Shown here: positions 35,819-64,000 of the stretch, piece by piece
Numbering within the stretch: the first letter of the stretch is position 1
Layout of the letters: each line of letters begins with the position of its first letter
Source: Lunularia cruciata
Taxonomy: Eukaryota; Streptophyta; Marchantiopsida; Lunulariales; Lunulariaceae
Assembly: GCA_948567375.1 (NCBI GenBank)
Contig: OX419758.1
Coordinates: 48,065,473 to 48,129,472 of the forward strand
Reading direction: 5' to 3'
Length of the DNA: 64,000 bases
Notes under the pieces: model-generated
The model's database searches: none
The model's input: only the letters and a program-made list of their open reading frames with translations
What the model was told of the DNA's origin: nothing
Translations under genes and position numbers: made by a program

Positions 35819-35827
35819 AAGAATGGG

Positions 35828-36043
35828 ATGGATGGAATTTATGGACCACCAAATCCACTTCCGCCAAACCATTGGGACTTTCATTTCCAAATATTACCAA
35901 AGCATCATTTCACACAATTCATCACCTCACGCTTTGGGCAGGATTTTCTACATATGATCATCGTGTCAGAGGAACCCTTGATACTTCCAGTTGTAACTTA
36001 TGGAGAACGGTGGACGTGTTGTATCTATGTGTTAATCAACTAG
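35828..36043 (+). CDS. Element C leader ORF (71 codons), conserved between element families
   Basis: Begins nine bases after the primer site with MDGIYGPPNPLPPNHWDFHF and ends IYVLIN. Middle blocks are FTQFITSRFGQDF and PLILPVVTYGERW. The same frame is open in element F (7 of 71 residues differ) and a related frame is open in element B of another family. In C and F the differences are mostly amino-acid changing (7 changed codons against 2 silent), so these two copies show no purifying selection since they parted. The likeness to B implies an older functional constraint. No signal peptide or known motif. Confidence 0.6.
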   Translation: MDGIYGPPNPLPPNHWDFHFQILPKHHFTQFITSRFGQDFLHMIIVSEEPLILPVVTYGERWTCCIYVLIN

Positions 36044-36075
36044 ATAAATTGAGAGTAGTGGAATAGAATAGTAGC

Positions 36076-36915: not shown

Positions 36916-37029
36916 CAAGTTGCCCAGATGGAGTTTGTAGAACAGAATGATCAGGGAAACAAAGAATCCCAGTAGGAGATTTCAAGCCGCCTATTGGGAG
37001 CTTGATTAGTTCCAATGGGATTGAAGGCT

Positions 37030-39060: not shown

Positions 39061-39277
39061 GAAGTCTCTTCCTCTCATTGCGGCAGCAATAACGACGGTG
39101 TCAATTGATCCCAAGATTCATAACGAGTTTTGGTTAGCTCTATAGCAAGATCCCTTCTTCCAAATGGTACATGGTTGGCTAACAACAGGTGACAAAGAGT
39201 ACAACACCTCCTTCAAGGAAGGCCTTCTATTCCATGCGGACCGGATTCATGTTCCAACCAAAGGTGATCTTTGACTT

Positions 39278-40597: not shown

Positions 40598-41010
40598 TGT
40601 AACAATATGGAGTTTAGCGATGAAGTCAGTCATGCTCACAAAGTAGCACATAAGACAAATTGGCCTAGAATATTCCGGAAGTATCTAGGAAGCTTCTCAT
40701 TAGCTTAGCTTGCACCTTAAGTAAGTAGCTTCTAGAAGGAAGCTTCTAGAAGCTTCCAACTAGCTTAGCTTGCACGCCAAGTAGGCGGCTTCCAAAAGGA
40801 AGCTTCTTGAGAAGCTTCCTAGTTAACTTGGCTTGCACTCTAAGAAAGCGGTTTGAGGAAGCTTCTTGAGAAGCTTCTCAAGGGCCTTGTATGCTACCTA
40901 TTAATACCAAAGCCAAAGCTTATGCTAGGCATTCGGAGTTTTCCCTCATTCAAGTGTCCCAATGTGAGTTTCCATTCTCCTCTTTCTCTCCTTGGTTTTG
41001 GTCTTTTACA
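40598..41010 (+). repeat. Element C 3' LTR
   Basis: 413 bp. It differs from the 5' LTR by a short deletion near 40700 and by many G/A and C/T changes, consistent with moderate age. Confidence 0.93.
40738..40757 (+). promoter_or_regulatory. Perfect heat-shock-element array in element C 3' LTR
   Basis: Four alternating units: GAA 40739-40741, TTC 40744-40746, GAA 40749-40751, TTC 40754-40756, each two bases apart. Confidence 0.7.
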
Positions 41011-41015
41011 AGTAC

Positions 41016-43539: not shown

Positions 43540-45650
43540 TTAAAAATTAATGAATGTTTGTCCAATACGACATTTTTTTAGTGTAAAGTACAAGTATGTA
43601 TACATAGTCATAAGTAAAGTTATAAAAAAACATTGGTTGTGATTAATCAAACCAAATGCACTATTTATAGACAACATTTTTTTGCAGTGAGTTCTCTCAC
43701 TAGGTAGGACTAATTGTTTGCTATTGGGTTTGATGAATACATGAGTGGATTTGAACAAATGAGAATGGCTAAGTGCCACATAAAGTTGACCATGCGTGAA
43801 AGACTTAGGAGTGAGGAAGTGGACAACCTTTTCCAAATACTTACCTTAGCTCTTGTTAATAGTCATTACAAGTGCCAAGTTTTGAATGTACTGCTTCCTT
43901 TGAATAGTTAATGGGATAGCTTGAGGCAAGAAATAAGCACTTGATCACCCTTGCTTGTGCTAATGAGGATTTGTGTTTTGTTTAGTCCCTTGGCCGTGTT
44001 TAGTCTGCATACCAAGAAGATGATTGTGTCACACTTGAAGATTAGCTTGTATCAACGGATTCTATTGATTTCTATGGAGTTAAGATACTCAATGCAAAAG
44101 GCAAGCTACTCCTCTATATCCTTAGATACAATCTCATCAATACTAAGGTAGGTCATGGATGTCCCAAGAATGTGGTCTAGGATGATATTGTTCACCTTAA
44201 TGCAATCATCATTGCAAGGTATGAGAATAGCTACCTCTAAAATCCATGAGGAGGATCTTGAAAAATAAAGTCCACAAGAGAGCTAATCCCCAATAGATGG
44301 GGATGAAGGATGGATTGCTTTGTATGGAAGATCTTAGTGAGTGTGCCACCACCCACTTGGAGCAAGTAGCATGCATAGTCATCCTCACCTTCTTGTACTC
44401 TTATATTGATTGTGAGTTTTAAGTACTTGATTTGAGCCTAAAGGCTCACATTTACTCTTCAAACTTGCTTGCACAACTCTATCTTGGCTACCATGTGGTA
44501 CAATAAAATAGCACTTTCAAAAGTCACCGCAAAAGAGAACAAGCTTGCCTTTCAAGGGAACATGAAATTTGCCAATAGGAGCAATATCCTAGAACAAATT
44601 ATTGATAATTGTGAGGACATTGGATGATAGTATGGAAGCCTCATCAATGATGATGAATGACACAAAGTAGACATTTTATGCATATGCAAATTATGACTAG
44701 ATGTTTGAAACCAACTTGTGGAATATTGATGAGGATCTTGAAGGTGCTGTGAAGAGTCCGCCCATTGTCTACCAAGCTTGCAAAAATACTAATGAATGTA
44801 TATAGGAGAGCAATGCAGTTCATTGCTATAACTTTGGCTAGGAAAAGATGCTAAACAAACATCTTCCCACAACTAGCTGCTGCATTAAGGTAAAAAACAT
44901 CATGGGCATTGGGATGTTTTGTCATACAATGCTACAAGTATCAAATCAATCACTATAAATCACTTGTTGTTGCTCTTTATTTGCCTTGCAATAAAGTTCA
45001 TCAAAGATACTTTTTCTTGGATGTTAATAAAAAAATGACAATGATTCCTATGTGGTGCTCTATGAACAATGAAAGTCCTTACAAGAAGTATTGTGTGTGA
45101 GTAAAATCTAATTGATCTTGATAAATAAAAGTTTTTTTGCCTCAAGAATAGAAATGCCATCAGGAATAAAATCCTTGATCCTTTCACTCAAGAAATCCTT
45201 CTAAAGAGTGTCAACCTTATCTGGTGCATTAAGGGTACATATGATGGCAAACAACTCACAACTCACAACTCTAACATGGGAATTGACCAATTATAACCTC
45301 TTGTAGAGTCTCTTGATGCTCTTTTATTTGAGAGGCAATTTTGCAAGTAATTGTTATGGCACATTGTTATGTAGGGATGTGTCACATTATTGAAGGTCTT
45401 GAGGTCCTAAAAACTTTTGGCACCTTGGATGTGAAGGAGTAAAAGTCAAAGGTGAAAATGCTCAATATTCTTGGGATTTATAGTGTAAATCCAAGACATT
45501 GTCTTTTTGTGCCTTGCTCTCATGGCTTCAAGTACTTTCTTGCCCAAGTGTGGTGTTGAGGAATCTCTATGTAAAAAAGTTTCCAAGCTTCTTTGTTGGA
45601 TTCATTCAAGCAGAACCACACTAAGAGTTTGGAGTTTGGATGAGCCATTG
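43540..45650 (-). pseudogene. Helitron (Pif1-like) helicase pseudogene
   Basis: Read on the minus strand, helicase blocks appear in correct order across frames. A linker comes first: ARHKKTMSWIYTINPKNIEH and LLLLHIQGAKSF (about 45400-45530). Then a worn Walker A, VFYLNAAASCGKMFV (about 44860-44905), NGRTLHSTFKILIN, Walker B SFIIIDEASIL (about 44635-44665), GKLVLFCGDF, and motif V MTINKS, ending with motif VI FTHGQLYVALSHS (about 43770-43810). These match the RepHel helicase of Helitron rolling-circle transposons. Walker A has lost its GTGKT consensus, and there are many stops and shifts. The Rep endonuclease part is not seen and may be missing. Confidence 0.8.
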
Positions 45651-45913
45651 TGATAGCACATTGTTGATTTTGGTATATTGGTATAACAATAAGAACAAGT
45701 TATTCCTTCAAGGATATGGGTTAGAAATGGCCAAATTTGAAGAGAAGTGTGACAATGTGTAGTTCTTTATTGTTACCTATTTAACCCTTAGAGGAGTGTA
45801 GTGTCACCAACTATGGTGCACTACGGGAAATGGAAAATTAAGAGATCACTTTCACTAAGAATGAGTTTCAATTATTTCCTTAAAGTGATGATTCAATCAA
45901 CTCCAAAGCAGTC

Positions 45914-46350
45914 ACGCCATTTCTAGTGTTGCATCTAGATTGCTCAGACAATGGAGTTGCAATGATAGTAGTTAGAGATATTTTAGCAATCACTCATAGA
46001 CTACTTTTTGACAGTCAGATTTTGTATTCAAGGTATCAACTTCATGGTGGGGTCCAATGTCACTTTGGACCATTTGCACCATTGGGTGCACCATCAACGA
46101 GACCGTTAGGGTTTCAGACTTAGCTCAAGTCTAGGGTATACTTTCAAAGTACAGGTCCAAAGAGCTCACTTCTTTGATGTTGAGCCTTTGAGTTCCTAGC
46201 TATGGTGGACACAAGTTGGCGAGCGTCACCTAGATTCTCTTAGCTAGAGTAGATGTGGCTTGATTGTAATTAGTGCCCAGTTGTTGGAAATTTATGGAGT
46301 GACAAATCAATACTTGATCTGAGTTGAGTTGATTTGGGTAGTGTAAAAAA
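45914..46350 (+). repeat. Element E 5' LTR, truncated at its left
   Basis: Matches the LTR-derived repeats at 62501-63480, for example TCTAGATTGCTCAGACA, GGTATACTTTCAAAGT and TTGATGTTGAGCCTTTGAG. It ends near GGGTAGTGTAAAA, matching GAGTGGTGTAAACA in the other copies. The left third, beginning TGTGGCACTTTAGAG, is absent. Confidence 0.7.
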
Positions 46351-47600
46351 ATTAAATACATCAGAGAACTGAGGTAAGGGAGAAATTGGATGCAAGAACT
46401 GCAAGTGTTGGTGGTATCTCCAAGCTTGGTGGATTGTTGGTAGCTTGATCAAAGTTTAGGTTTTCCTTGGTGTACAAAGGCTTGTTGATTGATATAGATT
46501 TTGTAGTGAGGAAGACGGTGTGCAAAAGCGTTGGCCAAATTTTGAGGAAAGAGAAGTAATTTTTGAGCAATGGTTGTGATTTTGAGCTTTGGAGGTGAAA
46601 GCAGGAACAATTTATTGCGAGTTGGGCTCAAAAAGTGAAGTTGAATGTGGAGTTGGGAACCTATCCTTGTGAATTTATGATTTGGAAAAACTCATCATTT
46701 CAGTTTGGCCCGAGTTGAGAGTTAGCTGAGGTTTTGGCGGTCAACCAACTTTAGGATTTATGTCAAATTTTTGCTGGAGTTTACATTAGATTTTGGCCAG
46801 ATTTGGAAGATTTGGAGAATTTGGAGGAGTTTTGCTAGATTTGGAGAGAGTTCAAAGTGGCAAGAAGAAAGGCCTCATTTGGTTGAATTTTGACATTTAG
46901 AGGCTTTGAGGCATAGGGCTGTGGGCTACGAGAGGCCTAGAAGAGCAAGCAAGCCAACTTGCTAGTGTGAGGCTAGCTAGTTTAGAGTAGATCTTGGTCA
47001 TTGTTTGGCAAAATCTACCCATCTTGCTAGATTGTGTGCAACAAGGTTTGATCCCTCAATCTTTGGTTCCTAGATTGGTGCCCTAGCCAATTGGTCCATC
47101 CTCACTTGTTGTCCTAGTGATTGGCCCACTATTATCTATACACTTATAGCTTTGGCTAGGAGAGGCAATTGGATCCCATTCTTGGTGATCCTTGTAGCTT
47201 AAGACATAGATAGGAACTCCTATTATGTCAAATGCCAAATGGTGGAAGAATAAGTCTCATGTTGCTTTATGAGATGGAGTGTTTTTGTTTAGATTTCTTG
47301 TGATTGAACCCCCTCCATTCTTTGATTCCTTTTTTTGCACCACATTTGTGTGAGGTGTCATGAATTTAGAGCGTTGGTGCTCTGGTGTGCTCTCGATGGT
47401 GAGTCTAGAGTGATGACCTATAGATCGTGAGAGAGCGTGTTGTGATGGTAGGTTATTGGTTGCCCTTTCCCCTAGTGTAGCTGTCTCAATTAGAGTTACA
47501 TCAATAGGTAGGGTTCAATTGGTATTGGCACTTGGTGGTGCTCAGTTGGTGTCGGTACTTGGTGGTGTTCGATTGGTGGTGTTGGTTCTTGGTAGAGTAC
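46351..47600 (+). other. Probable leader of element E
   Basis: No recognised coding region. From 47500 it has short direct repeats built on TTGGTGTCGGTACTTGGTGG-like text. The initiator-tRNA primer site seen in families 1 and 2 was not found here. Confidence 0.4.
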
Positions 47601-47613
47601 TTGCGGTTGGCGG

Positions 47614-48765
47614 TTGGCGGTTTGTGGTTTCTTTATCATGAAGGAGTTCTTTGGGGATTCTAGAGGAGATAGCCATGCAGTCTGCAATGGGTTTACTCAG
47701 AGTGGCACTTGGTATCAACCTATATCTCAAGTCCCAATGAGAGAGGAGATTGATTCTAAGTTAGAGTTTGATATAGGAGCTGATTCAATTGAGAGTGTGC
47801 TTGGCATGCCCACACCATTGTTGTGGGACATGGACAAGATTTATGGGGACCTCCAAAGGCCCTAGGAGTTACTTTGGTACAATGGGTACCATTGAGTTGT
47901 ATGACTTCATCTAGGAGTTTGATAGTTGGTGTGATCTGTAGCAAATGCAAAACCCAACTTTGCTCACACTTTTCATGGCATAGAAGAGATAATTTCAACA
48001 CTTGGAGGTCCACCAATGGACAACTACCATGAGTTCAAGAGAGCTTACTTGAAGGATATTGAGTTGTGGAGACAATAGTGGTCTCCAAACTATGTCTCTA
48101 TCACTTTAGGCTTGGTTGCCAAGGGTAGATTGGCTATATCCACAAGTTCTAGCTTGAGTAGCATTGGTGGAGCTAGTGGAGGTGCACTAGTTAGAAATAG
48201 TGCTACTACAAGTAGAGGTATTGCTATAGGAGGTGGTGTAGTACCCGGGTTAACCCTTAGTAGAGTTCTTCCAATGTTTGAGGCAGAACTACCAAGGAGT
48301 GCGGATTGACAAGCTGAGAAGCTTGCAAGAGTTCTAGCGGAAGGCTGGAGAGAGCCTATGCAAGGTATACACTTGCATAAGGCACTTGCATAAGGCAACT
48401 GATCAGTTTCACTCAAGGAGTTATTGAGGCCAAAGAAATCCAGTTTTGGTATGGGATACTAGACAAGGAGGTGTGACGTAGAGTTTATGATGCTACATTG
48501 TTACAAGCTACTTTGCCTACTTTGGTGGTGGTCTTCGGTTTGGCTAAGCATATTGAGCTCAACATGATGGAGGAGAGAGTGGTGACATCTGGATTGGTAG
48601 GGAGACCTCATCCACAACTATGACTTCTTCTAGAGTGCAACAAAGTGCACCATGCCCAATTGGTTTTTGAGGACAAGGTGGATAGCTTAGATCCCATGGA
48701 GCAAGTAGAGGGCCTAGTGGAGCTAGATCCTGACCTTCATTTTTGTGTTACAGATTACATGGTGA
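47614..48765 (+). pseudogene. Element E gag remnant
   Basis: Broken frames give KIYGDLQRP, a stretch rich in Gly/Ser/Ala, FWYGILDKEV, RRVYDATLLQATLPTLVVVF and LAKHIELNMMEE. Then follow a basic Gly/Arg-rich part and CYRLHGDFRRQ, which looks like the first half of a zinc knuckle. The rest of the knuckle is missing because the sequence runs straight into the RNase H region of E1. The gag identity is by position and composition; several TAG and TGA stops are present. Confidence 0.6.
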
Positions 48766-50540
48766 TTTTAGAAGACAAGGAGGCTCTCAAGCTTTTGAGG
48801 AGCTCAAGCAATCCCTTTTTGTAGCTCCAATTCTTGCTAAACCTGATTGGAGAAAGCCTTTCATCCTCTACAATGATGTTTCTAATGTAGCTATAGGATG
48901 CAATCTTAGTCAATTAGACCAAGATGGGCTTGATCATCCAATAGCTTATGCTAGTAGGCAAATGGTTTTAACAGAAAAGAACTACTCTATCATGGAGAGA
49001 GAAGAGTTGGTAGTGATCTTTGGTCTCAAGAAATTTAGACATTACTTGATTGGAGGAAAAGCCACCATTTTCACAAATCACAAGGCTTTGAAGTACATCT
49101 TCAACTAGCCTAATGTGGAAGGGAGGTTAGCAAGGTGGATGATACTCTTTTTTGAGTATGACTACACCATTGAGGATCGGTAAGGAAAGAAACATGCACA
49201 TGCTGATTTGTTATCTAGGGCCTATGATCATGATGGAGATGAGCTAATGGATGATTTCTTCCCAAATGAGGAGCTCATGACAATCTCAATCACTCAAGAG
49301 GTTTCAACGGAGTACAAGGAGATATTGGATTTTGTGACAAGAGGTTACTATCCAAAAGGGATGCATGCTAGGGAGAGGAAGGCCCTTGCAACAAGAACTA
49401 GACCTTGCACAATGGTGGAGGATATTCTTTTTCACCAAGGAGCATATGGTCTACTTCAAAGAGATGTGGGTAAGAAAGAGTCTATCCTACTCATAAAGGA
49501 GTTTTATGAAGGTTTAGTGTGTGGAGGACACTTTGCAAGAAAGGTAGCTACTTTCAAGATTCTAGATGCAGGTTACCACTGGAGAAGGATTTTCAAGGAT
49601 TGTCTTGATTATTGCAAAACTTGTTATGTTTGTCAAGCTTTTTCTAGAAAGTCTACTTCCACTCCACCACTTAGATCAATTCCATTGCTAGGACCTTTTG
49701 AGAAGTGGGGAATTGATTTGTAGGTCCTCTCAATAGAATCCCAAGGAACAACCCCAATGAACGCATTATCACTAGGTTTGGATACCCTTTGGAGTTAGTT
49801 TCTAATAGAGGAGAAGAGTTTACAAGAAATATCAATATAGCCATGCTACAACATTTCAAGTCACATAGAGTAACTACATCCTACGACACATAGAGTAACT
49901 ACATCCTACGACACATAGAGTAACTACATCTTATAAGCCAAATTTTAATGGCTTGGTAGAGAGAACCAATCAGACCTTGTGCATAATGTTGGCCAAAGAT
50001 GCAGAAATGGAAGAGGCTAAACATCATTGGGATACAAAGATTCATGCAATTTTGTGGGAGTATAGGACAACCATGAAGACTTCCACCGGATATTCTCCAT
50101 TTCAATTTGTATTTGGTATTGAGTCTATCTTACCTATTCACTTTGATCTTCCTACCTTCCAAAGTATTCATAAGAGATTGAAGAAAGCACAAGGAGGTGA
50201 TGTAGAGAAGTCAAAGAAGGATTGACTCATGGAATTGGAAGAGGTAAGAGCAGTTGTTATGGTTTGGGTGGAGCAAGACCAAAGGAAAAAAAAGGAGAGC
50301 TATGACAAGAGGCAAGGCAAGGAGAAGGTGATTGGGTAATGTTATTTGATTTTATTCGATTCAAGAGAGTGAAAAAGAAGTTTTTGCCTAAGTGCTTTGG
50401 ACTTTTCAAACTAGAGAAGGTGTAGGGAAATTACACCTATGATCTCAAGGAGTTGGGAAGAAGAAAATTTGATAGGATTAACCATGATAAGTTGAAGATG
50501 TATCATAGAAGATAGAGAGACCTTCACTTGAGGACAAAGT
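48766..50540 (+). pseudogene. E1 RNase H and integrase
   Basis: RNase H: AFEELKQSLFVAPIL, AIGCNLSQLDQDG and NYSIMEREELVVIFGLKKFR. A TAG after LKYIFN is followed by YDYTIEDR and HADLLSRAY. The integrase zinc region has GGHFARKVATFK and CKTCYVCQ, then LGPFEKWGIDL. After a deletion in the catalytic core, RFGYPLELVSNRGEEF follows, then a triplicated 25-mer and NGLVERTNQTL. The end has GRRKFDRINHDKLK. The deletion, stops and triplication inactivate it. Confidence 0.8.
49862..49934 (+). repeat. Three copies of a 25-bp tandem repeat in the E1 integrase
   Basis: The unit CACATAGAGTAACTACATCC plus TACGA occurs three times (the last with a changed end). It covers the codons for HRVTTSY, just before the NGLVE part of the core. 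As 25 is not a multiple of three, each extra copy shifts the frame. Confidence 0.9.
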
Positions 50541-50562
50541 GAAAACTTAGTCCGGAGGTAAA

Positions 50563-51225
50563 TGTAACACCATTTGTGCATGTGTGTGGTACTATGATAT
50601 CTAGCTTGGTATTATGATATTTAGCTTGGTATTATAAATACTTGAGAGATATTATTTATACAGAGATAAATGATGGTTCTACATTACTCATGATTAGCTA
50701 AATTTAATCATAGCTAAGATAGTGGGGATCTTAATTTAGAGGAAGTGGAAAAGATGAGCACCATTATTTTGGATTCTAGTATGTTGACTTGGTATTATTC
50801 TTAGGTGTTTGGCTTTGAGGAAAGAGTTGAGAACTCTTAGGCCCGCAAGCCTTTTTGTTTTGGATTCTTCTATAGTCCAAGGATAGCACATGCAAAGGAA
50901 TCCTTGACTTAATGGTTGGGTCAAGATAAGATCACATGCTTAGTGGAATATGCCCATGTGTATGGATATTCCTTTATACTTTTTGACTTTACTTGAATTT
51001 TAGCTTAGTGACTTGAGTTACTCTAGTAATTAGTAACTTTGGTGCATAACTATTTCATAAGTATATAAAAAAAGGGTGAGGAGGTACTCATCATCCTTTC
51101 ATTTGCAACTATCTCTCTCTCATTGAGTTCTCTAGTGAGCAATGTTTTGAGTCTTGGAGTGTTAGCATTGGAGGAGTATGATAGAGTTGGGGTTCCTTAC
51201 CTTCTTAGTCCATTGTGCGTTACCA
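50563..51225 (+). repeat. E1 3' LTR
   Basis: Starts TGTAACACCATTTG after a purine tract and ends about GTGCGTTACCA. It contains a TATATAAAAAAAG box near 51061. It shares no evident similarity with the LTRs of families 1, 2 or E. The right border is approximate. Confidence 0.6.
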
Positions 51226-51251
51226 TAATAGCCATCAGAGGTTCATCCTGA

Positions 51252-53003
51252 ATGAAAGACAAGCCGGCTCACAGAGTTGACTTGGTTGAGGAGCATGGGA
51301 TCCGCTCAACAACCAATGGTTTATGGCAGGCAACAATGGCTAGATTGGAGGAGTTGCTAGCTAGACCGGCCTTTGAGAGAGCATGGTTCATACTTGGTGT
51401 TGTCTTATTGGATAACCAAAGGGGATTTTCTATTTGTTGAGACCTTTAGGGAAGGCCTATAGACCACAAGGAGTCTTATTAGACTTTGTTGAGGAAGGTT
51501 GCAATTATCAATCTAGGGTTACGGAAGACCATTGTGGAGAGGTGTCCATTTTAGATCCATATAACTTTAGGTGGTGGTTTGACACAGGAGATCACACGTG
51601 GAGAGCTAGTTGTTTAGACTCAGCCTGGTCATCCGACTGATAGCTTGGTGGTGAGAGCTCAGGCTATTGTGACAATAGTTGAGTCATATGATGTGTTAGT
51701 CAAAGGAGTAACATTATACCCCATGGATTTCAGTATTGACTATTGGGAGGAGACAACCTCCTATGGACCAGGTTGGCAGTCAGGTGAGGGATGAGTATAT
51801 TGCCTACCAATACGCTTCAATAGTAGCAGTCTTGGCTCACAATAGTCCGAGACCATGGCAACATTAGTTTTAGCTTTTAGTGGTGCAATTACTTGGCTTG
51901 GTGATTTATTGGAGGGGAACGCCCATGCAAAGGATACTCCAGTACCAAAGGAGATCACTTGGATTTGGGGTACAAGTGGGATTGTTCCATCCACCTTGGA
52001 TGTTCCATTGTGGAGTTTTGAGGAGGCATTGCAACAATATGCAGATTGGTTGGTGCAACAAGCTTAGAGTGGAGCTTTTGTACTACCAAGAGATGAGTAT
52101 GAGGATGAGCCTCAAGAGTCAATTACCTTGACACCTCTGGATACCGCATTCATTGCTTGGCAGTATCCAATAGAGGGAGTATGTCTATTGGAGTTGTTCG
52201 GTGAGATTAACACCGGACTAGCTACTATACTATAGGCAGGTATATGAGTACAGAGGTACTTGTATGTGGAGAGAGATGAGACTACCAGGAAAATCTCTCT
52301 CCGTCATGTGGCACACTTGGTCTATTGGTATCCTAAGTTATTACCAATGTCAGAAGTCAGGGGTTACCAAAAGTCTTTACTAGCAGACATTTCTTTGCTG
52401 GGGCCGCATGATCTAGAGCAACATAGGCTTGTTCATTTGGTGATTTTTGGATGGCCATGTTAGGGACATACACGTGTTGGCCAAGGTTTAGGTCTTTAGG
52501 ATCCCCATTCTGGTGTGTTTTGGGAGATGTTATGGATACTACAACATCTCCAAGTTCATTAGACCGTTTCTCCAACTTACATTTTTGAAAACTTCCCTTT
52601 GATAGGTGATTCTTGCACCCAGGTGGTGGCGAGTACACATCAAGTCCATCCTTGGATGGGACCTACTGTTTTGTTAGATGCAACCAAAGTGAGATCACGA
52701 TCTCATCATCTTTGTCTCTGGTGGATGAACCTCTTACCTAGAGAGGTTCTATAGTGTGCTTATGATAGGATTCAACGACTAGACCACATCATTGTTGATG
52801 TCATCTTGGATGTTGGGTGTCAATCTCAAATGATGGTAGTGGCTGATAGGTCACCTATGGTAGTGGTGAACCTAGTTGGACAGCCTAGAGCCGCACTTAT
52901 GAGTTTCACAGGCTCTCATGCTTTCAAGAGGGATGTCTTGGATTGGTTTGGGACTCACAATTACAGCAGTTGGTGGAGCCCAAGGCCAATGAGAGAGAGT
53001 AGA
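51252..53003 (+). pseudogene. Retrotransposon-encoded cytosine-5 DNA methyltransferase segment (element E)
   Basis: From about 51660 to 53003 a single frame is preserved, broken only by stops (TAG and TGA, no TAA). The upstream part (RVDLVEEHGIRSTTNGLW, AYRPQGVLLDFVEEGCNYQS, LDPYNFRWWFDTG) is an unidentified domain. The C5-methyltransferase motifs then appear in order: motif I LLELFGEINTGL (52184-52220, AdoMet site), motif II YLYVERDETTRKI, and motif IV GWPC with the catalytic Cys codon at 52458-52460, followed by a TAG where the usual Gln should be. Next are motif VI YIFENFPLIGD (52581-52610), the VRSRSHHLCLWWMN block for motif VIII, and a target-recognition-like SFTGSHAF. The enzyme class methylates the C5 position of cytosine in DNA. 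It lies between gag and RT, so it is part of the element polyprotein. Inactive as it stands. Confidence 0.8.
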
Positions 53004-53670
53004 TGATGGGTTTTTGCACTAGTATTATTTTTGTTCTAGTAATGTTAGAGATATCTAGGCATCAAGTTTAGGTCAAGCTATAGACCTGAATTGTTTGATC
53101 TAGACTATGAGCTTTTGCTTGGTAAAGCAACGTAGAATGCGCTTGATAGGCATCACCACTCGGACACTTGTGAGCCTTGTGCCTATGGAGACAATTCAGG
53201 CACATGTTGGGGGTGATGGACCAAGTAGACATGGTATTCTTGGGACACAACTGATAGCTACTAGGGAGAATGGTCTACTTGGAGTCCATCCAAGTGAGCA
53301 TGGGCTACTTGGATTACACTCTTGCTCTACTTGGGATGTTGCTAGAGGTGTGTGGAGTTTGTAGGCAAAGTAAAGGAAGTTTTTCACACTGAGATTGGGA
53401 CCTCTAGTGCTTGGGAGCATGATACTATTACTCAGTGTAGCAACTAGTAAGTATGTCTTCCACTCCTATGATAGTTACAAAGGATGCTTGGGAGCTAAAT
53501 CTTGGACCCAAGCTTATTGGAGAGGAAAGATAAAGGGTCTGGAGGTTCTTGAAGAGCTACAAAAGTTGTTTTGCCTTTAGTATGAAGGATTTGGGTGCTC
53601 TAAAGGGACCTAGTATATGGATTGAGCTGACTAGTCATACACTAGTTTTCTAACGTCCTTACGATATAGT
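53004..53670 (+). other. Spacer between methyltransferase and RT of element E
   Basis: Continues the broken polyprotein (FHTEIGTSSAWEHDTITQCS, SYKGCLGAKSWTQAYWRGK). A protease would be expected here, but no DSG/DTG active site could be recognised, so its presence is undecided. Confidence 0.4.
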
Positions 53671-53673
53671 GAT

Positions 53674-54989
53674 ATGGAGAGGATATTGATTCAAAGTCGG
53701 GGTAGTGACCTTTTTGAGGTTGGTTTGGTGGAGATTTCACATGGAGAGTATGCATCAACTACAATGATGCTAGCCAAGAAGGATATGCCTGGCAACTACA
53801 CATATAGGCAGATGTATAAAGATTACCATTCTATCAACCGACAGGCTAGGGCTGATTGGTATGCAATGCCTACACCGGAAGAGATCTTTGATGTGATTGG
53901 GTATGCAAAGGTCTTCAATACTTTGGATCTTGGAGCAGGATATCATTAATTGATGATCAGGGAGGAAGATAAGTCCAAGATAGCATTTTGGGCTATTGAT
54001 CCTCACGGTAAGGATGTGTTATATTAGTGGAGGTTCTTACCATTTGTTTTAAAGAATGCTCCTCTTGAGTTCCAAAGGGTCATGGACATGATCCTAGTTG
54101 GATTGGATTTTTCTTGGTGCTATATTGATGACATTTTAGTCTATAGCACTATTGTGGAGGAGCATGAGAGATAGTTGTTGGAGGTCTTTGAGAGGTTGAG
54201 ATCTCATGGACTCAAATTACATCTTGGGAAGTGTAGTTCTTCCACGAGTAGGTTGAGTACTTGGGTCACACTATCTACCTTGGAGGACTTGGTGTTCAGC
54301 ATACCAAGGTGGAAGCTATTGCACGTATTCCTTGGCCTACAGATGTGAGCAGCATGTGAGCATTCCTTGGGTTGTTGAACTTCTATCATCAATATGTTAG
54401 AGGATTTAGTGCCATTTCCAAGGCCTTGATGAAGTTGACCAAGCTTACACATGAGTGGTGTTGGGGAGATGAGCAAGAGAGAGCTTTTGTAGAGCTCAAG
54501 GAGAGGTTGACATTTGCTCCTATTTTGACTAGACCAATTAGAGGACAACCATCTTAGGTTCACACTGATTAGAGTATGTCGGGGCTTGGAGCAATGCTTA
54601 CCCAAGATGATGATGAGGGGAAGGAGTTTGTGGTGGCCTATGCTAGTCGCTCCAAAAACTCAATGGAGGCACAATATAGTTCATATGAGGGAGAGTGCTT
54701 GGCAACAATTTGGGCAGTTGCTCATTTCCGATGTTACTCATTTGGTAACCCCTTCATTCTCATCATTGATCATCAGCCACTGAAGCGATTGATGGAGTCC
54801 AACAAGCTTTTAGGGAAACTTGCGCAATGGACTCTGATTTTACAAGAGTATGATTTCATGGTTGATCATAGATATGGAGTGGTGAACCATGATGCAGATG
54901 AGTTGAGTAGAAATCCATGTCTCAACCAGCAAGATCAGACCGGACCACATTGGCATGGTAACTTAGATGAGGAGATGGTGCAAGGTTGA
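53674..54989 (+). pseudogene. Element E reverse transcriptase and RNase H
   Basis: RT: LVEISHGEYASTTMMLAKKD, CDYR-like KDYHSINRQ, WYAMPTPEEIFDVIG, VFNTLDLGAGYH, FLPFVLKNAPLEFQRVMDMI and the active site CYIDDILVYS (about 54118-54147). RNase H: PILTRPIRGQPS, a stop, GLGAMLTQDDDEGKEFVVAY, YSSYEGECLATIWAVAHFR, IIDHQPLKRLME, and DADELSRNPC to 54989. Stops occur after AGYH, at the QWRF-like position, and in the DWS block of RNase H. This RT lineage differs clearly from families 1 and 2 (YIDD in place of FLDD). Confidence 0.85.
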
Positions 54990-55004
54990 CATGCATTTGC
55001 CTTT

Positions 55005-56392
55005 TTGTGTATATTTTTTGAGGCTTTGGTGGTATCTCTCTCATTGCATGCAAGAAAAGTTATTGAGGTCATAGATCCAAAGAGTGAAGATATTGGTATA
55101 GTTCAGCAAGACATTCATGATGATGTCTTAGTGATGGACTATCTTTGCACTGGTGTTGTGGGTGGCATAGTTGGGGCCAAGGAGAGAGACCATGTTCTTC
55201 AGCAAGCTAGATGGTTTAGATGGGAGGGTAGACACCTTTTGCGTGTATGGGAGGATAGTAAAGTGTGAGTAGTACCACTTTCATCTTAGAGACTATAATT
55301 GGTCCGTCATGCTCACGAGGAGCTAGAACATTTTGGAGTAAAGCATACCTATAGCTTACTCTAGAGTCATTATTGGTGGCGTAGTATGCAGACCAAGGTA
55401 TAACAATTTGTTGCTAGATGTGTGGTTTGTGATTGAGTTAGAGCATCAATACTCCTATGCTAGAATTACACCCATTACTTATTATGGGATTGGATTACCG
55501 ACTTTGCTAGACCTTAACCGTTGATTGTGAGGAATCATCAATATGTTTTGGTGATGGTGGAGCACTTCTCCAAGTGGATTGAGTTGGTGGTACTTCCTGA
55601 AAAGTCTAGTGAAGGGATGGCTTATTTGTTCCTAGATCGGGTTCTTAGTCATTTTGGTGCACCAATTGAGGTTTTGATCAAGGTATAGAGTTCTTGGGAG
55701 AGTTTCAAGTCTTGTGTGACAAAGCTTTGATTGAACATCATACTACCTCCCGAGATCAACTTAAGGCAGATGGATTAGCAGAGAGAGTGGTTCAGACGGT
55801 GAAGAGAGGATTGCAAAAGTACAATTTGCAGAGAGGCCACTTAAGAGATTGGGATCTCCAATTACCTTGGTTGGCCATGGGCTATTAGTTCAGCCGGCAA
55901 GCTCCCTTAGTATCCTTCTCTTCTTACTTTCTATGTTATGGACAAGATCTAGATTTACTTGTAGCCATTTGTTGAGATGCTATTGAAGTTTTGGACTTAG
56001 ATGATCCAAATGTATGGATGAGCACATGTTCTTAATGTGCAAAGATCTTTTGGAGAGTGATGCCAATGGCCTTTGAGAACTTGGCAATTGCTCAGCATAG
56101 AGATACCTTACACTATGCTACTATTCAAGGAGGAGGTTATAGACCCTTGATCCGTCAATTTCATCCAGGAGACTATGCATATCTATAGTAAAAAACACCA
56201 ATGACACTTGGTGTTTCTATAGGCTGCACTATCTTGAGAGTGTGTGAGGTTTTGCCATCTGGAGTCCTTGTGTTGGAAGGACATGATGGAGTTTTTTGGA
56301 AGTATCATATACGCAATTGTGTGCCATGCCACCTCTTAAAGATTGATGGTACTATGGACCCAATCTTGGCACTTGTACGTGCAGGCTTGAGG
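55005..56392 (+). pseudogene. Element E integrase
   Basis: Begins with linker DVLVMDYLCTGVVGG and HLLRVWEDSKV. The zinc domain follows: HEELEHFGVKHTYSLL and ARCVVCD, an HH-CC pattern. Core: VLVMVEHFSKWIELVVLPEK, YLFLDRVLSHFGAPIEVL, GEFQVLCDKALIEHHTTSRD and ADGLAERVVQTVKRGLQKY, with the third catalytic acidic residue in GLAE. Then FSRQAPLVSFSSYFLCYGQD. The C-terminal part has TILRVCEVLPSGVLVLEGHD and RNCVPCHLLKIDG. Frameshifts occur near 55490 and 55690, and there are several stops. Confidence 0.8.
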
Positions 56393-56527
56393 TGTATGTT
56401 ATGTGGCTCTTCAGGTGGAGCTGCTATTATGTTAGTGTGTGATACCTATTCAAGATGATGGCATATGGCATGTTTGACTCTTCCCTTCATGGTGGCTCCT
56501 TTGGGACAGCAGTAATGTCATAGATGT
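56393..56527 (+). pseudogene. PHD-finger-like module at the C terminus of element E pol
   Basis: The frame after the integrase gives CMLC, then a 14-residue loop, CDTY, WHMAC, a Pro/Leu-rich LTLPF, and CHRC. This is the C4HC3 zinc-ligand order of PHD fingers, with seven of eight ligands kept (the fourth Cys is Tyr here), the W-H-x2-C core, and stops before W and before the last pair. PHD fingers usually read histone H3 tails. In chromoviruses a chromodomain occupies this place. The call is by motif pattern only. Confidence 0.62.
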
Positions 56528-56703
56528 ACTTGACATATAGCTAGTTCATCCTTTATATGGTATAGATTGTAGATATGCGACTAACAATGGGGCTCAATAG
56601 CACTCGGCCTCCTGATCTTTGCCCATCATTAGGGTATACCATATACTTGGAGTAGATGGCTATTTGGAGTAAGAGGGACCTAACCGCCAGCTAGGGAGGC
56701 AAT

Positions 56704-56864
56704 TGTGGCACTTTAGAGTCTATGTATGACTTATGTGTGAGTAATATGTCTATAGTGTATGATGTTGACAATGATGTATGTTGTGTAGCAATGTATATAC
56801 GCACGACAACTATCACACCATTTGTAGTATCACATCTAGATTGCCCGGACACTGGAGTTGCAAT
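56704..56864 (+). repeat. Element E 3' LTR, part before the F insertion
   Basis: Starts TGTGGCACTTTAGAGTC after the purine tract and runs to GAGTTGCAAT, where element F enters. It resumes at 62501. Confidence 0.75.
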
Positions 56865-57287
56865 TGTAAAAGACCAAAACCAAGGAGAGAAATAGGAGAA
56901 TGGAAACTCACATTGGGACACTAAAATGAGGGAAAACTCCAAATGCCTAGCATGAGCTTCAGCCTTGGTATTTATAGGTAGCATACAAGACTCTTGAAGC
57001 TTCTCAAGAAGCTTCATTGAGCCGCTTTCTTGGAGTGCAAGCCAAGTTAATTAGGAAGCTTCTCAAGAAGCTTCCTTCTAGAAGCCGCCTACTTGGCATG
57101 CAAGCTAAGCTAGTTAGAAGCTTCTAGAAGCTTCCTTCTAGAAGCTACCTACTTAGGGCGCAAGTTAACTAGTTAGGAAGCTTCCCAAGAAGCTTCTTAG
57201 ATGCTTCTAGAATATTCTAGGCTATTTTGTCTTATTCTCTACTTTGTAAGCCCGACTAACTTTGTCTCTAAACTCCATATTGTTACA
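56865..57287 (-). repeat. Element F 3' LTR
   Basis: On the + strand TGTAAAAGACCAAAACC to CCATATTGTTACA, with the TATA box in inverse form (TATTTATA) near 56970. Heat-shock-like blocks fill 57000-57200. Confidence 0.93.
57116..57135 (-). promoter_or_regulatory. Perfect heat-shock-element array in element F 3' LTR
   Basis: GAA 57117-57119, TTC 57122-57124, GAA 57127-57129 and TTC 57132-57134, two bases apart, with further TTC/GAA pairs at both sides. Confidence 0.7.
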
Positions 57288-57743
57288 TATTCCCCCGCTG
57301 CTAGTTGGTGATGTCCTCGTTGCCAGTAAAGCTTCGAAGTCCTTGATGGCCATCTGTGAATTCTGGAGGTGAGAAAGAGGTTCCCATGTGGCATCATGAA
57401 GGGGATACCCTTTCCAAAGGACCTTGTACTCCGTATGTTGGCGACGGCCTCGTTGAATATGGCAACGCGCAAGGATACGATCAACTTTGTACTCCTCATG
57501 ATCATTGATAGGGATAGGAAGAGGGGGAGGTTGGACTCGAGAGGAAAAGGAAGAAGGGTTAGGAACAAAGGGTTTTAACTTGGAAACATGAAAGACAGGA
57601 TGGATACACATGTGACAAGGTAAGGCAAGTCGATAAGCAACAAGAGAGATAATGTGGGTGATATCAAAGAGTCCTATCCAATTAGGAGCAAGTTTACAAA
57701 CTTGGGTATCAAATGGGAGAGGGAGGTTACTAGAGGATATCAT
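57222..57743 (-). pseudogene. Element F integrase tail and chromodomain
   Basis: A 173-codon frame with KLAPNWIGLFDIT, HMCIHPVFHVSKLKPF, and the chromodomain EYKVDRILARCHIQRG and VLWKGYPLHDATWEPL. It continues through the purine tract into the 3' LTR, so the last residues (about CNNMEFRDKV onward) are encoded by LTR sequence. The chromodomain is complete here. Family knowledge suggests it targets heterochromatin marks. Confidence 0.85.
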
Positions 57744-57848
57744 GACTTTATCACCAACTTCAAAGGTGAGATCACGACAATGATGGTCTGCATATTGTTT
57801 TTGGTGATTCTAAGCAACAAGGAAGTGAGATTTGGCTTGTTGGAGAGA

Positions 57849-58388
57849 TTAGGATATAATGGTCAAGAATGTAGAAGTATGAGGAACTTGAGAGGGAGGG
57901 GGAGCAAGAAGAGAATCTGGAACAAGCGGATCTTGGCCAAAATTGAGAAAGAAGTGAGAAAATCTAGTGCTTGCCTGTTTGGAATTGTTGTAGGCAATTT
58001 CCACAATTGCAAGATATTCATCCCAGTTGGTATAGTGGACATTGACAAAGGCCCGCAACATATCATCTAATGTACAATTGGCGCGTTTGGTTTGTCCATC
58101 AGTTTGAGGATGATAGGCCGTGGATAAAGCAAGCTTGGTGCCAAGTATCTGGAAGAGTGCTTGCCAAAACTTCTCGGTAAATTGAGGATCTCGGTCGAAG
58201 ATGAGTGCACATGGCATCCCATGATGCTTGAAGACATTGTTGAAGTAGATTTGCGCTAAGGTTGGAGCATCCACGGTATCACAGGTTGGTGCCAAGTGGA
58301 TTTGCTTACTAAGCTTATCCACAAACACCACAATTGCGGTGTGTCCTTGTTTTGTCTTTGGCAAGGATGTGATGAGATCCAAGCTCAC
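57849..58388 (-). pseudogene. Element F integrase core
   Basis: Frame with SLDLITSLPKTKQGHTAIVV, VFVDKLSKQIH, ALIFDRDPQF (second catalytic Asp) and TAYHPQTDGQTKRANC, where the conserved catalytic Glu of the TERAN block is Lys. That change alone would abolish activity. Stops bound it on both sides. Confidence 0.88.
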
Positions 58389-58520
58389 ATGCTCCCAATG
58401 AGCGGATGGAATGGCAAGTGGTTGAAGGAGTCCACTCGGCTTCTGGTTGTTGGCCTTGTTCCGTTGGTAACTTTCACATGATCAAACAAAGTCTTGAACA
58501 TTTTGTGTCATGTTGGGCCA

Positions 58521-59108
58521 TCACCATTGGCGTTGGAAGGTGACCAAGGTCTTGTCCACTCCCATGTGACCAGCTATTGGTAAATCATGGGCTTCTTGAA
58601 GGCGCACAAGTCGAAGATCACCTTTGGCTAGAACATAGATTTGGTCTACATGGAATAAAAGGCCTTCCTTGAAAGAGAAGGTGTTGTACTCCTTGTCGCG
58701 TGCTGTCAGACAACCGTGTACCATTTGGAAGAAGGGATCTTGTTGTAGAGCTGATTGAAACTCATTATAGACCTTAGGGTCAATGGACACCGTTGTAATT
58801 GCCGCCGTGATGAGACAAAGATCCTTCAAATCAAGTTGTCGTGATAGAGCATCGGGGATGACATGGAACCGACCTAGTTTGTACTCAAGTTTGATGTCAA
58901 ACAATTGGAGTTGCTCTTCCCATTGATGATGCTGACTCTTCATGTGCTCCAAGTGTAAGGTCTGCAACAATGGTTTGTGATCAGTTTGCATGATCACTTG
59001 TTTCCCCAAGAGATAATGCCTCCATACCTTGGTGGCATATACCATTGCAAGTTGTTCCCGATCTTGAGCAGAGTAATTTCTTTCAGCTGTATTTAGTTGG
59101 CGAGACAC
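58521..59108 (-). pseudogene. Element F RNase H end and integrase zinc-domain start
   Basis: Frame with LNTAERNYSAQDREQLAMVY, TDHKPLLQTLHLEHM, FHVIPDALSRQLDLK (the RNase H end) and then LQEAHDLPIAGHMGVDKTL (the first part of the integrase zinc region). Confidence 0.85.
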
Positions 59109-59255
59109 AAAGGCAATAGGATGTAGTCCATCTGTAAATTCCTATTGCAACACAACTCCAATTGCAAAGTTAGAAGCATCAAAATCAACCACACAAGGTA
59201 GTTGAGGATCATATGGTTGAAGAATAGGCCTTGAAGACACCATATGCTTTAACTT

Positions 59256-59891
59256 CTAGAATGCTTCTTCATGCTTGGTGGTCCACTGGAAGCTCGAGTT
59301 CTTTCCCAAGAGGTCAGTCAATGGTGTAGCCACGTGAGCATAATAGTGGATGAACCGTCGATAAAAACTAGCCAATCCATTGAATGCTTGTACTTCTATA
59401 GCATCCTTCAAGGTAGGCCAATCAGTAATGGCCTTGATCTTCTCTTCTTCCATCTTGATCCCCTCTGATGAGATCTTATGACCCAAGAAGGTAATCTCCT
59501 TTTGCCAAAAAGCACACTTTGACTTCTTGCAGTAAAATTTCCACTGTCGTAGTCGTCTTAGAACTTCTTGCACACGATTCTTGTGTTTTGCCTCTGTCCT
59601 ACTATAGATTAAGATATCATCTAAGAACACTACCATGGACTGATCCAATAGTCCCTCCAACACCCAATGCATCTGATCTATGAAGACTGCTGGAGTATTA
59701 GTGAGTCCAAATGGTAGAACTCTCCACTCAAAATGTCCATACCTTGTGCGAAAGGCAGTCTTTTGCACGTCCTCTCCTTCAATAGGAATTTGCCAATAGC
59801 CGCTACAAAGATCCGGCTTGGAAAAGTAGCGTGCTCCACTTAATTGGTCAAGCAAGTCGTTGATCCGAAGCAAGGGATATGCATTCTTCAC
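59256..59891 (-). pseudogene. Element F reverse transcriptase core
   Basis: 211-codon open frame with [52 protein letters not shown] (active site FLDD) and FLGHKISSEGIKMEEEKIKA. The first catalytic Asp is retained in PDLCSGYW. Upstream, a stop near 59894 and the frame change at about 59990 separate it from the WGAPVLFV block. Confidence 0.9.
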
Positions 59892-59990
59892 GGTTTGCTT
59901 ATTAAGCCCACGGTAATCAATATAGAAATGAAGTCCTCCATCCTTCTTTGGAACAAATAGTACCGGTGCTCCCCATGGAGAGGTACTATG

Positions 59991-60887
59991 TCATATGAAA
60001 TCCTTCTCCAACAACTCTGTAAGTGTTGTTTGTAACTCCTCCAACTCCTTTGGTGAGAGCCAATAGATTGGTCTACTCAATGGAGTACTCCCTGGCAATA
60101 ACTCAATCTTGAAAGGCATACCTTGATCAGAGGGTAATCCCTTTGGCAGATGATCTGGAAACACATCTACAAACTCCTGAACTATCCGATCAGCCGTTGC
60201 TTGATACGGCACCTGGCCCTCCTTAGATTGTTCTTGTGCAATTGGCTTGATCCACACCGCAAATACAGACTTATCTTCCTCCAAATCTTGCTCTATGGTT
60301 ACTTCATTAACAAACTTCCCTTCTAGGGACTCATCTCTCTTCCAAGCTTGCTCCATGGTTGCCTTCTTGGCAAACTTCCCATCTTGGGACTCATCTCCCT
60401 TCCAGATTTGCTCTATGGCTACCTTCTCAACAAACTTTCCATCTTGGGACTGACTATTCTTAGGTGTCTTACTCAGAGGTGCCAAACAACCTAATCGGAA
60501 ATTCCTACCTTGGTGTTGTACTTGAATTTGACGTTGGGTCCAATCGAATTGAACCTTATGACGTTCAAGCCAAGGTAGAACCAGAATGATATTATAGTGT
60601 AGAAGTGCCACTACAAACCTCATACACTCCAAATACTCCTTCCCAATCTTGAAGGTAACAGGATGCAAGGTGCAGAATGCATAACCTTTTCTACCATCCG
60701 CCATCATCAAACTACTTCCAATCATTGGCTTGATAGGAATACCCAATTCCTTTGCTACTTGCATAGATATGCAATTCTTTGAACTTCCAGAATCAACCAA
60801 AATCCTACAACCCCGATTAGATATTGTACCTTGCAAGTGAAGCAAACTTGCATAGGTCAAGCTTTCAATCCCATTGGAACTAATCAA
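59991..60887 (-). pseudogene. Element F protease and linker to RT
   Basis: 298-codon frame. The aspartic protease has ILVDSGSSKNCIS (DSG active site intact) and a second half NIILVLPWLERH. Then follow three 20-residue repeats, VDVFPDHLPKGLPSD, and the RT start [19 protein letters not shown] to LEKDFI. The protease active site looks intact. Confidence 0.88.
60272..60451 (-). repeat. Three 60-bp repeats of family 1 in element F
   Basis: Same array as in C at 37441-37620, with period 60 bp and cores DGKFVEK, DGKFAKK and EGKFVNE. Confidence 0.88.
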
Positions 60888-60989
60888 GTTCCCAATAGGC
60901 GGCTCAAAATCTCCTACTTGGATTCTTTGTTTCCTTGATCATTCTGTTCCACAAATTCCATCTGGGCAACTTGTCGAGGTCACCCATTC

Positions 60990-61822
60990 CTAAGTGGACA
61001 TTCAGCAATGCGATGTCCAACTTGGCGACAATAAAAGCAACCTCCATTTTATCATAATCTTTCTCTATCTACTGTGCCAAGTGGTCTTTGTTGGATAGTA
61101 TCAATCTCCATTGGTACTGGTTCTTCCACTCGTGGTAATGGTAGGTTTTGTGTAGGTCAAGGTTGAGACCAAGTTGTTGCAACTAAGGAATCAAAACGCT
61201 CAGCCAATTGCATGGCTTCTTCTACGTTCTGTGGCTCTCACATGGTCACCTCCAATCTGGTTCGTGACTTCAATCCTTGCACAAATCGATCCAGAACTTC
61301 ACCTTCTTGGATATCTGGAATTTGCATGATGATATTCTGAAATTGTGTGATGTAGCTTCTCATTGAGCCAATCTGCCTCAACTCCGCCAATTTATCTTGT
61401 GCAACTCGGGTGGCATTTATAGTCTAAAATTGACCAAGTATTGCATCCTTGAATTTTGCCCATGTCAAAATTAGTGTAACAATTTGTCGTTCAGCTCTTT
61501 CTACTCGGAATCGCCACCAAAGTTTTGCCACACCATCCAATTGGCTAGAAGCCAAGAGAATTTGTTTCCACTTGTCTTGAAGATTGGTGGCCTCAAAGTA
61601 ACATTCACAGTCAAACACAAAATTCTCCACTGTGCCTGGAAGATTCTTGCCTTCAAACACCTTGGGTTTTGGAAATCGAATGCGATCTTCTCCATCTCAA
61701 ACTAGCGCTCCGTCTATCTGTTCTTGTCGTTGCTGGTCTTATTCATCCAACAATCGAGTAAGATGCTTGATTTGTTGTTGCATTGCAAGGATAACATCCG
61801 GTATTGCCGCCATCGCTTCTAC
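60990..61822 (-). pseudogene. Element F gag
   Basis: Broken frames. They include KNLPGTVENFVFDCECYFEA and LASSQLDGVAKLWWRF (61660-61424), and a zinc knuckle C-x2-C-x4-H-x4-C at about 61003-61045. Several stops are present. Confidence 0.75.
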
Positions 61823-61846
61823 TCTATTCCACTACCCTCAATTTAT

Positions 61847-62062
61847 CTATTTGATTAACACATAGATACAACACGTCCACAGTTCTCCATAAGTTACAAC
61901 TGGAAGTATCAAGGGTTCCTCTGACACGGTGATCATATGTAGAAAATCCTGCCCGAAGCGTGAGGTGATGAATTGTGCGAAACAATGCTTTGGTAATATC
62001 TGGACATGAAAGTTCCAATGGTTTGGCGGAAGTGGATTTGGTGGTCCATAAATTCCATCCAT
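61847..62062 (-). CDS. Element F leader ORF (71 codons)
   Basis: ATG at 62062, about 12 bases after the primer site, to the TAG at 61847. Same length and same motifs as the element C leader ORF (FGQDF, PLILPVV, IYVLI). It is open although gag is not. Confidence 0.6.
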   Translation of the reverse strand: MDGIYGPPNPLPPNHWNFHVQILPKHCFAQFITSRFGQDFLHMITVSEEPLILPVVTYGELWTCCIYVLIK

Positions 62063-62084
62063 CCCATTCCTACTTTGATACCAA

Positions 62085-62495
62085 TGTAAAAGACCAAAAC
62101 CAAGGAGAGAAATAGGAGAATGGAAAATCACATTGGGACACTTGAAAATAAGGGAAAACTCCAAATGCCTAGCATGAGCTTCAGCCTTGGTATTTATAGG
62201 TAGCATACAAGACTCTTGAAGCTTCTCAAGAAGCTTCCTTGCGCCACTTTCTTGGAGTGCAAGCCAAGTTAACTAGGAAGCTTCTCAAGAAGCTTCCTTC
62301 TAGAAGCTACCTACTTGGCATGCAAACTAAGCTAGTTAGAAGCTTCTAGAAGCTACCTGCTTAGGGCGCAAGTTAACTAGTTGGGAAGCTTCCCAAGAAG
62401 CTTCTTAGATGCTTCTAGAATATTCTAGGCTATTTTGTCTTATTCTCTACTTTGTAAGCACGACTAACTTTATCTCTAAACTCCATATTGTTACA
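62085..62495 (-). repeat. Element F 5' LTR
   Basis: About 411 bp, ending CCATATTGTTACA. A three-unit heat-shock-like array GAA-TTC-GAA lies at 62338-62352. Confidence 0.9.
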
Positions 62496-62500
62496 ACAAT

Positions 62501-63590
62501 GATAGTAGTTAGAGGTATTTTAGTAGTCACTTATAGACTACTTCCAGATGGTCAGATTTGTGTTTGGGGTAGTGACTTCATGGTAGAGCCCACCATGACT
62601 TTGCACCATTCGCACCATTGGGTGTGCCATCAGCGGGACCGTTAGGGTTTCAAACCTAGCTTGAGTCCAGGGGTATACTTTTAAAGTGCAACTATAGAGA
62701 GCTCACTTATCATGCCATTTGTACTGTCACATCTAGATTGCTCAAACACTGGAGTTGCAATGATAGTAGTTAGAGTTATTTCAACAGTTTCTCAAAGACT
62801 ACTTTCTGATAGTCAGATTCGGTGTTTGGGGTATTGCCTTCACGGTGGGGCCCACCACCACTTTGCACCGTTTTCATCGTCAAGTGTGCCATTAGCAAGA
62901 CTATTAGGGTTTAAAACCTAGCTCAAGTCCTAGGGTATACTTTCAAAGTGCAACTCCAGAGAGCTCACTTCTTTGATGTTGAGCTTTTGAGTTCCTGGCT
63001 ATCGTGGACAGAGGCCGGTGAGCATCACTTGGATTCTCTTAGCTAGAGTGGGTATGGCTTGATTGTAATCAATGCCCAGTTGTTTGCAATTTATAGAGTG
63101 ATAGATCAAGTATTGATCTGAGTTGAGTGGATTCAAGAGTTGTAAACAATCTGATTATTGTGGCACTTTAGAGCCTATGTATGACTTATGTGTGAGTTGT
63201 GTTTCTATAATGTATGATGTTGTGTAGCGATGTATATACGCGATGTATATACACAATGCATGTTGTGTAGCGATGTATATACGCACAACATACTTCTCTG
63301 ATGTTGAGCCTTTGAGTTCTTGGCTATGGTGGACAGAAGCCGGCGAGCGTCACTTGGATTCTTTTAGCTAGAGTGGGTGTGGCTTGACTGTAATAAGTGC
63401 CCAGTTTTTGGCAATTTATGGAATGATAGATCAAGTACTGATCTAAGTTGAGTTGATTTGAGTGGTGTAAACAAACTGATTATTGTGGCACTTTAGAGTG
63501 TATGTATGACTTATGTATGAGTTATATGTCTATATTGTATGATGTTGACAGTGATGTATGTTGTGTAGAAATGTATATACGCACAACAAA
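62501..63590 (+). repeat. Cluster of partial, tandemly arranged element E LTR sequences
   Basis: Begins with the rest of E's 3' LTR (62501 to about 62700). A second copy starting ATCATGCCATTTGTACTG runs to GTTGTAAACA (about 63150). Then come a short TGTGGCACTTTAGAG-led copy from about 63159 and another TGTGGCAC start near 63486. The 10-base spacers ATCTGATTAT and AACTGATTAT separate the LTR end from the next TGTGGCAC. Each copy lacks a different part, which suggests repeated unequal recombination or nested decay. Confidence 0.65.
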
Positions 63591-64000
63591 GGGGCTGCTC
63601 ACCACAAAAATGCTCAACACTAAAGATTGTATTCTATTCTTCCCAAAAAGCACAACTTGGAAGGAAATTTGCATTGATAATAAGACTTTGCCTTTTGATT
63701 CAACAATCACTTTCAACACTATAGTTTATTGCTTTTCTATCAAGGTATTGCACTGCTCTTTTAGAACACTCAATGATCATTACTTAATAATTACCTTAAT
63801 TATAAGTACAAATGATCAATCCAACTTAAGCACTTAGGTTTGTAATATGAAGTTCCTCACCAATATTTATTAGAAAAAAGAAAATACAACCAATAATCAA
63901 AAGTTAAGCAAAAGCAACAAAGGGGATTTGACCCTTTGGCTTTATTCCTAGTCAATGGATTGAATGAAATATTTACAACTAGGCCATTGCCTTAAATAAC
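63591..64000. other. End of window, nothing recognised
   Basis: AT-rich DNA after the LTR cluster. A 111-codon frame starting in LTR sequence continues to 63837, but its product is not recognisable. Confidence 0.4.

Follow-up and report, generated by a model that had tools for sequence, protein, structure and literature searches.

Does a retrotransposon in the genome of Lunularia cruciata carry its own DNA methyltransferase? The question arises from a C5-cytosine methyltransferase (MTase) domain found at 52179-53100 on the forward strand, directly upstream of a Ty3/Gypsy-type reverse transcriptase (RT), in the 64,000-nucleotide stretch of contig OX419758.1 analysed here (the window, to which all positions refer). 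We place a probability of roughly 80% on the reading that the element concerned, element E (~45.9-63.6 kb, forward strand), derives from a Ty3/Gypsy-type retrotransposon and is by now an old, dead copy, with a pol running from MTase to PHD finger and with DIRS-like split repeats, in whose ancestor the MTase and PHD finger would have had the roles proposed below. The features of the locus are collected in Table 1.

Table 1. Features of element E, of the element nested in it and of adjoining remnants (window positions; X and Y, terminal repeat units)
Feature	Position	Strand	Evidence and remarks
Left terminal repeat X (remnant)	45910-46351	+	82% (347/422) to 62710-63133; 88% (161/183) to 63292-63475
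Gypsy remnant distinct from E (RNase H, H2C2 integrase)	48734-50550	+	between left X repeat and MTase
Coding-like remnant, in MTase frame	51642-52121	+	3 stops/160 codons
C5-MTase motifs I to VIII	52179-52751	+	191 codons, 5 stops; PC and EN residues kept
MTase motif I LLELFGEINTGL	52185-52220	+	motif search, frame of first-pass annotation
MTase motif IV VIFGWPC	52440-52460	+	same frame as motif I
MTase motif VI YIFENFP	52578-52598	+	same frame as motif I
MTase motif VIII RSRSHH	52692-52709	+	same frame as motif I
MTase, probable motif IX region	52934-53014	+	other frame; 1 stop/27 codons; no separate score
MTase, probable motif X region SSLGQAIDLNCLI	53062-53100	+	third frame; no separate score
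Reverse transcriptase	53845-54243	+	PF00078 E 2.4e-16 and 2.6e-17, profile from position 37; 3 stops/133 codons
RNase H	54462-54851	+	PF17917 E 4.5e-29, PF17919 E 1.1e-27; 2 stops/130 codons
Integrase: H2C2 zinc binding and rve core remnant	55284-55670	+	PF17921 E 1.1e-13; PF00665 E 0.0034, below cut-off; 6 stops/113 codons
PHD finger, downstream of integrase core	56393-56527	+	2 stops/45 codons
Terminal repeat unit Y1	56702-56809	+	93.5% (101/108) to 63482-63589
Head of right X unit, cut by nested element	56811-56864	+	84.6% (44/52) to left X
Nested Gypsy with chromodomain, within right X unit, not part of E	56865-62495	-	Chromo E 1.5e-13
Remaining right X unit	62496-63156	+	internal tandem duplication of ~262 bp
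Terminal repeat unit Y2	63157-63290	+	89.7% (96/107) to Y1
Partial X unit X'	63292-63475	+	88% (161/183) to left X
Terminal repeat unit Y3, right end	63482-63589	+	93.5% to Y1

The Ty3/Gypsy order of RT, RNase H and integrase was found in E, the pol of which starts with the MTase, continues through these three domains and closes with the PHD finger. The PHD finger matched PF00628 with an E value of 0.019 when a 418-codon stretch was used as the query. Following an initial weak match (E 0.018), a piece of 64 codons was excised, and this gave a full-length match to PF00628 (E 6.5e-5) at 23.3 bits against a cut-off of 24. When the same piece was searched against the PDB using phmmer, 69 sequences were matched at E≤1, the best being DPF3 (1.6e-7).

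The terminal repeats of E look split as in DIRS elements. Their pattern, X-coding-Y-X-Y-X'-Y, as read from one old copy, fits the A-coding-B-A-B arrangement known from DIRS elements, with one incomplete unit added. The pentanucleotide CAAAG occurs at 45904-45908 and again at 63587-63591; as the second occurrence runs into the final 3 bases of Y3, the word is no more than a candidate 5-bp target duplication. The LTRs of the nested Gypsy element (56865-57287 and 62085-62495) are 93% alike, as compared with 82% for the left and right X units of E, and the insertion is flanked by GCAAT and ACAAT, with the chromodomain in its C-terminal integrase frame. Since the nested element sits inside the right X unit, E is the older of the two. 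The nested element is also one of three related Gypsy elements in the window (23715-28207, 35380-41011 and 56865-62495), which are 81.7-91.3% alike over 4.5-5.7 kb; Chromo matches in the window comprised a significant one at 57225-57809 and one below the cut-off at 29730-30149.

A similar arrangement could have arisen without split repeats, in an ordinary LTR element, through loss of the Y unit from the left LTR and gain of tandem copies in the right one; alternatively, the left X could be an unconnected member of the same repeat family. Such a history would suit the internal tandem duplications within the right repeats, as well as the age of the copy and the disturbance of its 5' half. However, the left X starts a few bases from the position of the Y/X junction and stops, when aligned to X', 7 bases short of Y3 or, when aligned to X, 24 bases short of Y2, and repeat comparison by blastn found no Y unit beside it. 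We regard unsplit repeats as unlikely, though as retaining a real share of the probability, and prefer the split, DIRS-like arrangement. We infer that the left X, and hence the left limit, belongs to E.

The 5' half of the element is less clear, and the first-pass annotation, which had placed the MTase between gag and RT, was borne out on the RT side only. Pfam searches of the forward frames of 44001-53801, a decayed region, found no gag or protease domain, and a gag domain directly upstream of the MTase was rejected. The coding-like remnant that precedes the MTase is possibly an unrecognised domain of E; the stretches of it that were tried had no family match in Pfam, PHROGs or NCBIfam, and 51621-52046 had no match in the PDB or among phages. 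Debris of another forward-strand Gypsy element lies between 46.4 and 51.6 kb, showing that the 5' half of E has been disturbed. CpG is very low in 48000-50230, at 0.12 of the expected frequency.

This debris, just upstream of the MTase and containing RNase H and integrase, is one reason to ask whether the MTase is instead a fragment of a host gene (e.g. from a processed copy of DNMT3) or part of some other mobile element, and came to lie beside the RT by chance. The parts are tied together neither by a gag nor by a common open frame, which is no longer visible in the decayed copy, and both blastn and a six-frame search with a profile of ten phage MTases found a single MTase in the window. On the other hand, the MTase adjoins the RT on one strand, the RT match beginning ~0.75 kb past the last MTase piece with no repeat boundary found in the gap; decay is comparable between MTase and pol; and the combination of an MTase with a Gypsy pol agrees with published Gypsy-Dnmt3 elements. 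A chance landing of this kind is improbable, and the MTase is treated here as part of E.

Stop density is comparable across the five coding domains of E (Table 1), which fits an element that lost its function as a whole once it had inserted, and not inactivation of the MTase alone. The copy is dead. Its MTase had been annotated as lying in one reading frame over 51660-53003, but this interval contains 9 stops, two frame changes cross the domain, and pieces resembling motifs IX and X occur in two other frames. The claims that the element encodes its own methyltransferase and could itself write DNA methylation are thus not supported for this copy, the frame of which is broken.

What survived of the MTase was examined by motif and profile searches. 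The quoted C5-MTase motifs I, IV, VI and VIII were indeed located in a single frame and in canonical order (52185-52709), and the pieces at 52934-53014 and 53062-53100 are those that we take to be motifs IX and X. When the MTase was aligned with ten phage enzymes, two of which (L003 and L007) are incomplete at the sequence end, 20 columns were invariant, including the catalytic PC, the EN of motif VI and W-x-N after motif VIII. An HMM of the ten phage enzymes, run over the six-frame translation of the entire window, scored the MTase locus at 38.4 bits (E 3.1e-11), with a second, overlapping chunk of the locus at E 5.2e-10; the best score elsewhere in the window was 3.7 bits, and 30 random first-order Markov windows reached at most 9.4 bits. 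As the phage enzymes had been found by similarity to the MTase query, this test somewhat favours the MTase, and the same applies to a six-frame search with a DNMT3A segment, itself the query's own PDB match, which ranked the locus first (E 0.0014).

Free of this selection bias were the PHROGs and tblastn searches. The sole PHROGs families at E≤1 were 363 and 116 (1.8e-4 and 2.4e-4), both named DNA methyltransferase. Using tblastn against phages, the best E value was 6e-6, and among 40 rows listed from 313 records, 35 were named methylase or methyltransferase, the other 5 being hypothetical. Matches in a plasmid collection, all with E values of 0.03 or weaker, lay under a methylase-type name in 5 of 5 records, or in 18 of 23 with a shorter MTase query. 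The Pfam DNA_methylase profile, to which the first-pass annotation had pointed, gave a mixed result: PF00145 was the best family for cut-out pieces of the MTase but stayed below its gathering cut-off in this decayed copy (12.7-14.8 bits against 22), and it had no match at E≤0.1 when the entire 1200-codon frame was the query. In NCBIfam, TIGR00675 scored 11.4 against a cut-off of 100.65. Structure prediction from the single MTase sequence was uninformative (mean pLDDT 34), and no relatives were found in viral contigs (MTase and RNase H frames) or genome contigs (RNase H frame). Judged from sequence, the identity of the locus as an MTase, the core of the original observation, holds beyond chance resemblance. 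That the motifs are a chance likeness in noncoding DNA, as the Pfam and NCBIfam scores below cut-off might suggest, was rejected as exceedingly improbable on the six-frame profile result with its control windows and on the PHROGs matches, and the names of the phage matches likewise speak against it.

By its best matches the MTase looks DNMT3-like. In a PDB search, DNMT3A was the only methyltransferase matched, in 16 of 18 rows at E≤1 (E 0.023 and up), which is weak evidence because a cytochrome P450 chain (0.0097) ranks above DNMT3A (0.035) with a longer query. A profile built from the MTase and its ten phage relatives placed DNMT3A/B/C in the first 29 of the best 60 of 85 rows, a ranking that speaks mainly for the phage relatives. 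Assignment to DRM was rejected, since the motifs follow the canonical order I-IV-VI-VIII and are not rearranged.

A footprint of self-methylation was also sought in base composition. Observed/expected values for CpG and CHG were 0.22 and 0.56 in E (51100-56700), 0.17 and 0.23 in the Gypsy element at 23.7-28.2 kb, 0.40-0.42 and 0.53-0.54 in two other Gypsy elements, and 0.61 and 1.42 in the kinesin region. No such footprint was seen, the depletion in E being within the range of the window's other elements; as all measured transposons are depleted relative to the kinesin region, the CG and CHG data neither support nor exclude self-methylation. That the measured transposon stretches are poorer in CG and CHG than the kinesin region is as expected of plant-type transposon methylation. 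The kinesin region contains an exon of a kinesin motor gene (1264-1698, forward strand; PF00225, E 3.5e-8), and a weak match to a neurobeachin region, below the cut-off, lies at 14204-14602 (E 0.0025). Together with the chromodomain Gypsy elements, the kinesin exon suggests a streptophyte host.

The first-pass annotation had referred to rare captures of MTases by retrotransposons in some protists and streptophyte algae, and for one such alga, Klebsormidium nitens, capture is in print. According to the accessible text of PMC5890265, Dnmt3 lies in the pol of Gypsy elements of this alga, with DIRS-like repeats and under purifying selection. By that description, KnitGypsy-Dnmt3 resembles E in its Gypsy domains, its unrearranged Dnmt3-type MTase with pol and, apparently, its DIRS-like repeats. 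It differs in that the copy of E is dead and in that E has a PHD finger, whereas the word 'PHD' is absent from the main text of PMC5890265. The KnitGypsy enzyme showed no activity in yeast, a result its authors deem inconclusive, and two SymbioDIRS-Dnmt3 enzymes methylated CG there (accessible text of PMC5890265). SymbioDIRS-Dnmt3 and SymbioLINE-Dnmt of Symbiodinium are, as described in the same text, retrotransposon-borne C5 MTases like that of E, and the former appears to share the DIRS-like A-coding-B-A-B repeats, but they use tyrosine recombinase or LINE machinery and E an H2C2/rve integrase. The accessible text of PMC12344493 assigns DNMT3 to elements of the type 'LTR Copia and DIRS', with reference to this same 2018 paper (PMC5890265), which says Gypsy. 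Plant DNMT3 and DRM have a DNMT3-like catalytic domain in common with the MTase of E but are host genes, and the motifs of DRM are rearranged whereas those of E are not (PMC6453930, accessible text). Chromodomain Gypsy elements (chromoviruses) share with E an RT, as seen in the element with the significant Chromo match, and a C-terminal domain of the chromatin-reader type, which is a chromodomain in them and a PHD finger in E; the six-frame profile detected no MTase in the window besides that of E.

Titles, the openings of abstracts and the accessible text of PMC6453930, PMC12344493, PMC9477723, PMC8226279, PMC7602945 and PMC3286476, from a literature mostly outside subscription journals and so leaving absence from print unproven, mentioned neither a further Gypsy-Dnmt3 element from a land plant nor a Gypsy element bearing a PHD finger of its own. 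We infer that E is the fossil of an element of the known Gypsy-Dnmt3 kind and was once active; given its PHD finger, it may be a variant of that kind.

While still alive, the ancestral element would have made its DNMT3-type domain together with RT, as suggested by PMC5890265 and by the domain order. Before integration or in the course of it, the MTase could then have methylated the new cDNA of the element, with CG sites as the most likely target. The PHD finger, in the place where the nested neighbour has a chromodomain, may have bound histone tails and steered integration. More broadly, and at something short of even odds, there may have been a Gypsy lineage outside Klebsormidium, possibly an ancient streptophyte one, that joined a DNMT3-type writer and a PHD reader in one pol, had DIRS-like split repeats, methylated the cDNA that it made and selected the chromatin it entered.

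Retrotransposons are usually the targets of DNA methylation. An MTase and a PHD finger in one element form a rare combination, similar to elements described in a green alga that is a relative of the land plants. If Gypsy-Dnmt3 elements occur in one more host, this would show that such capture either spread or took place repeatedly in the plant line. The pairing of MTase and PHD finger suggests how methylation of cDNA might be coupled with the choice of target.
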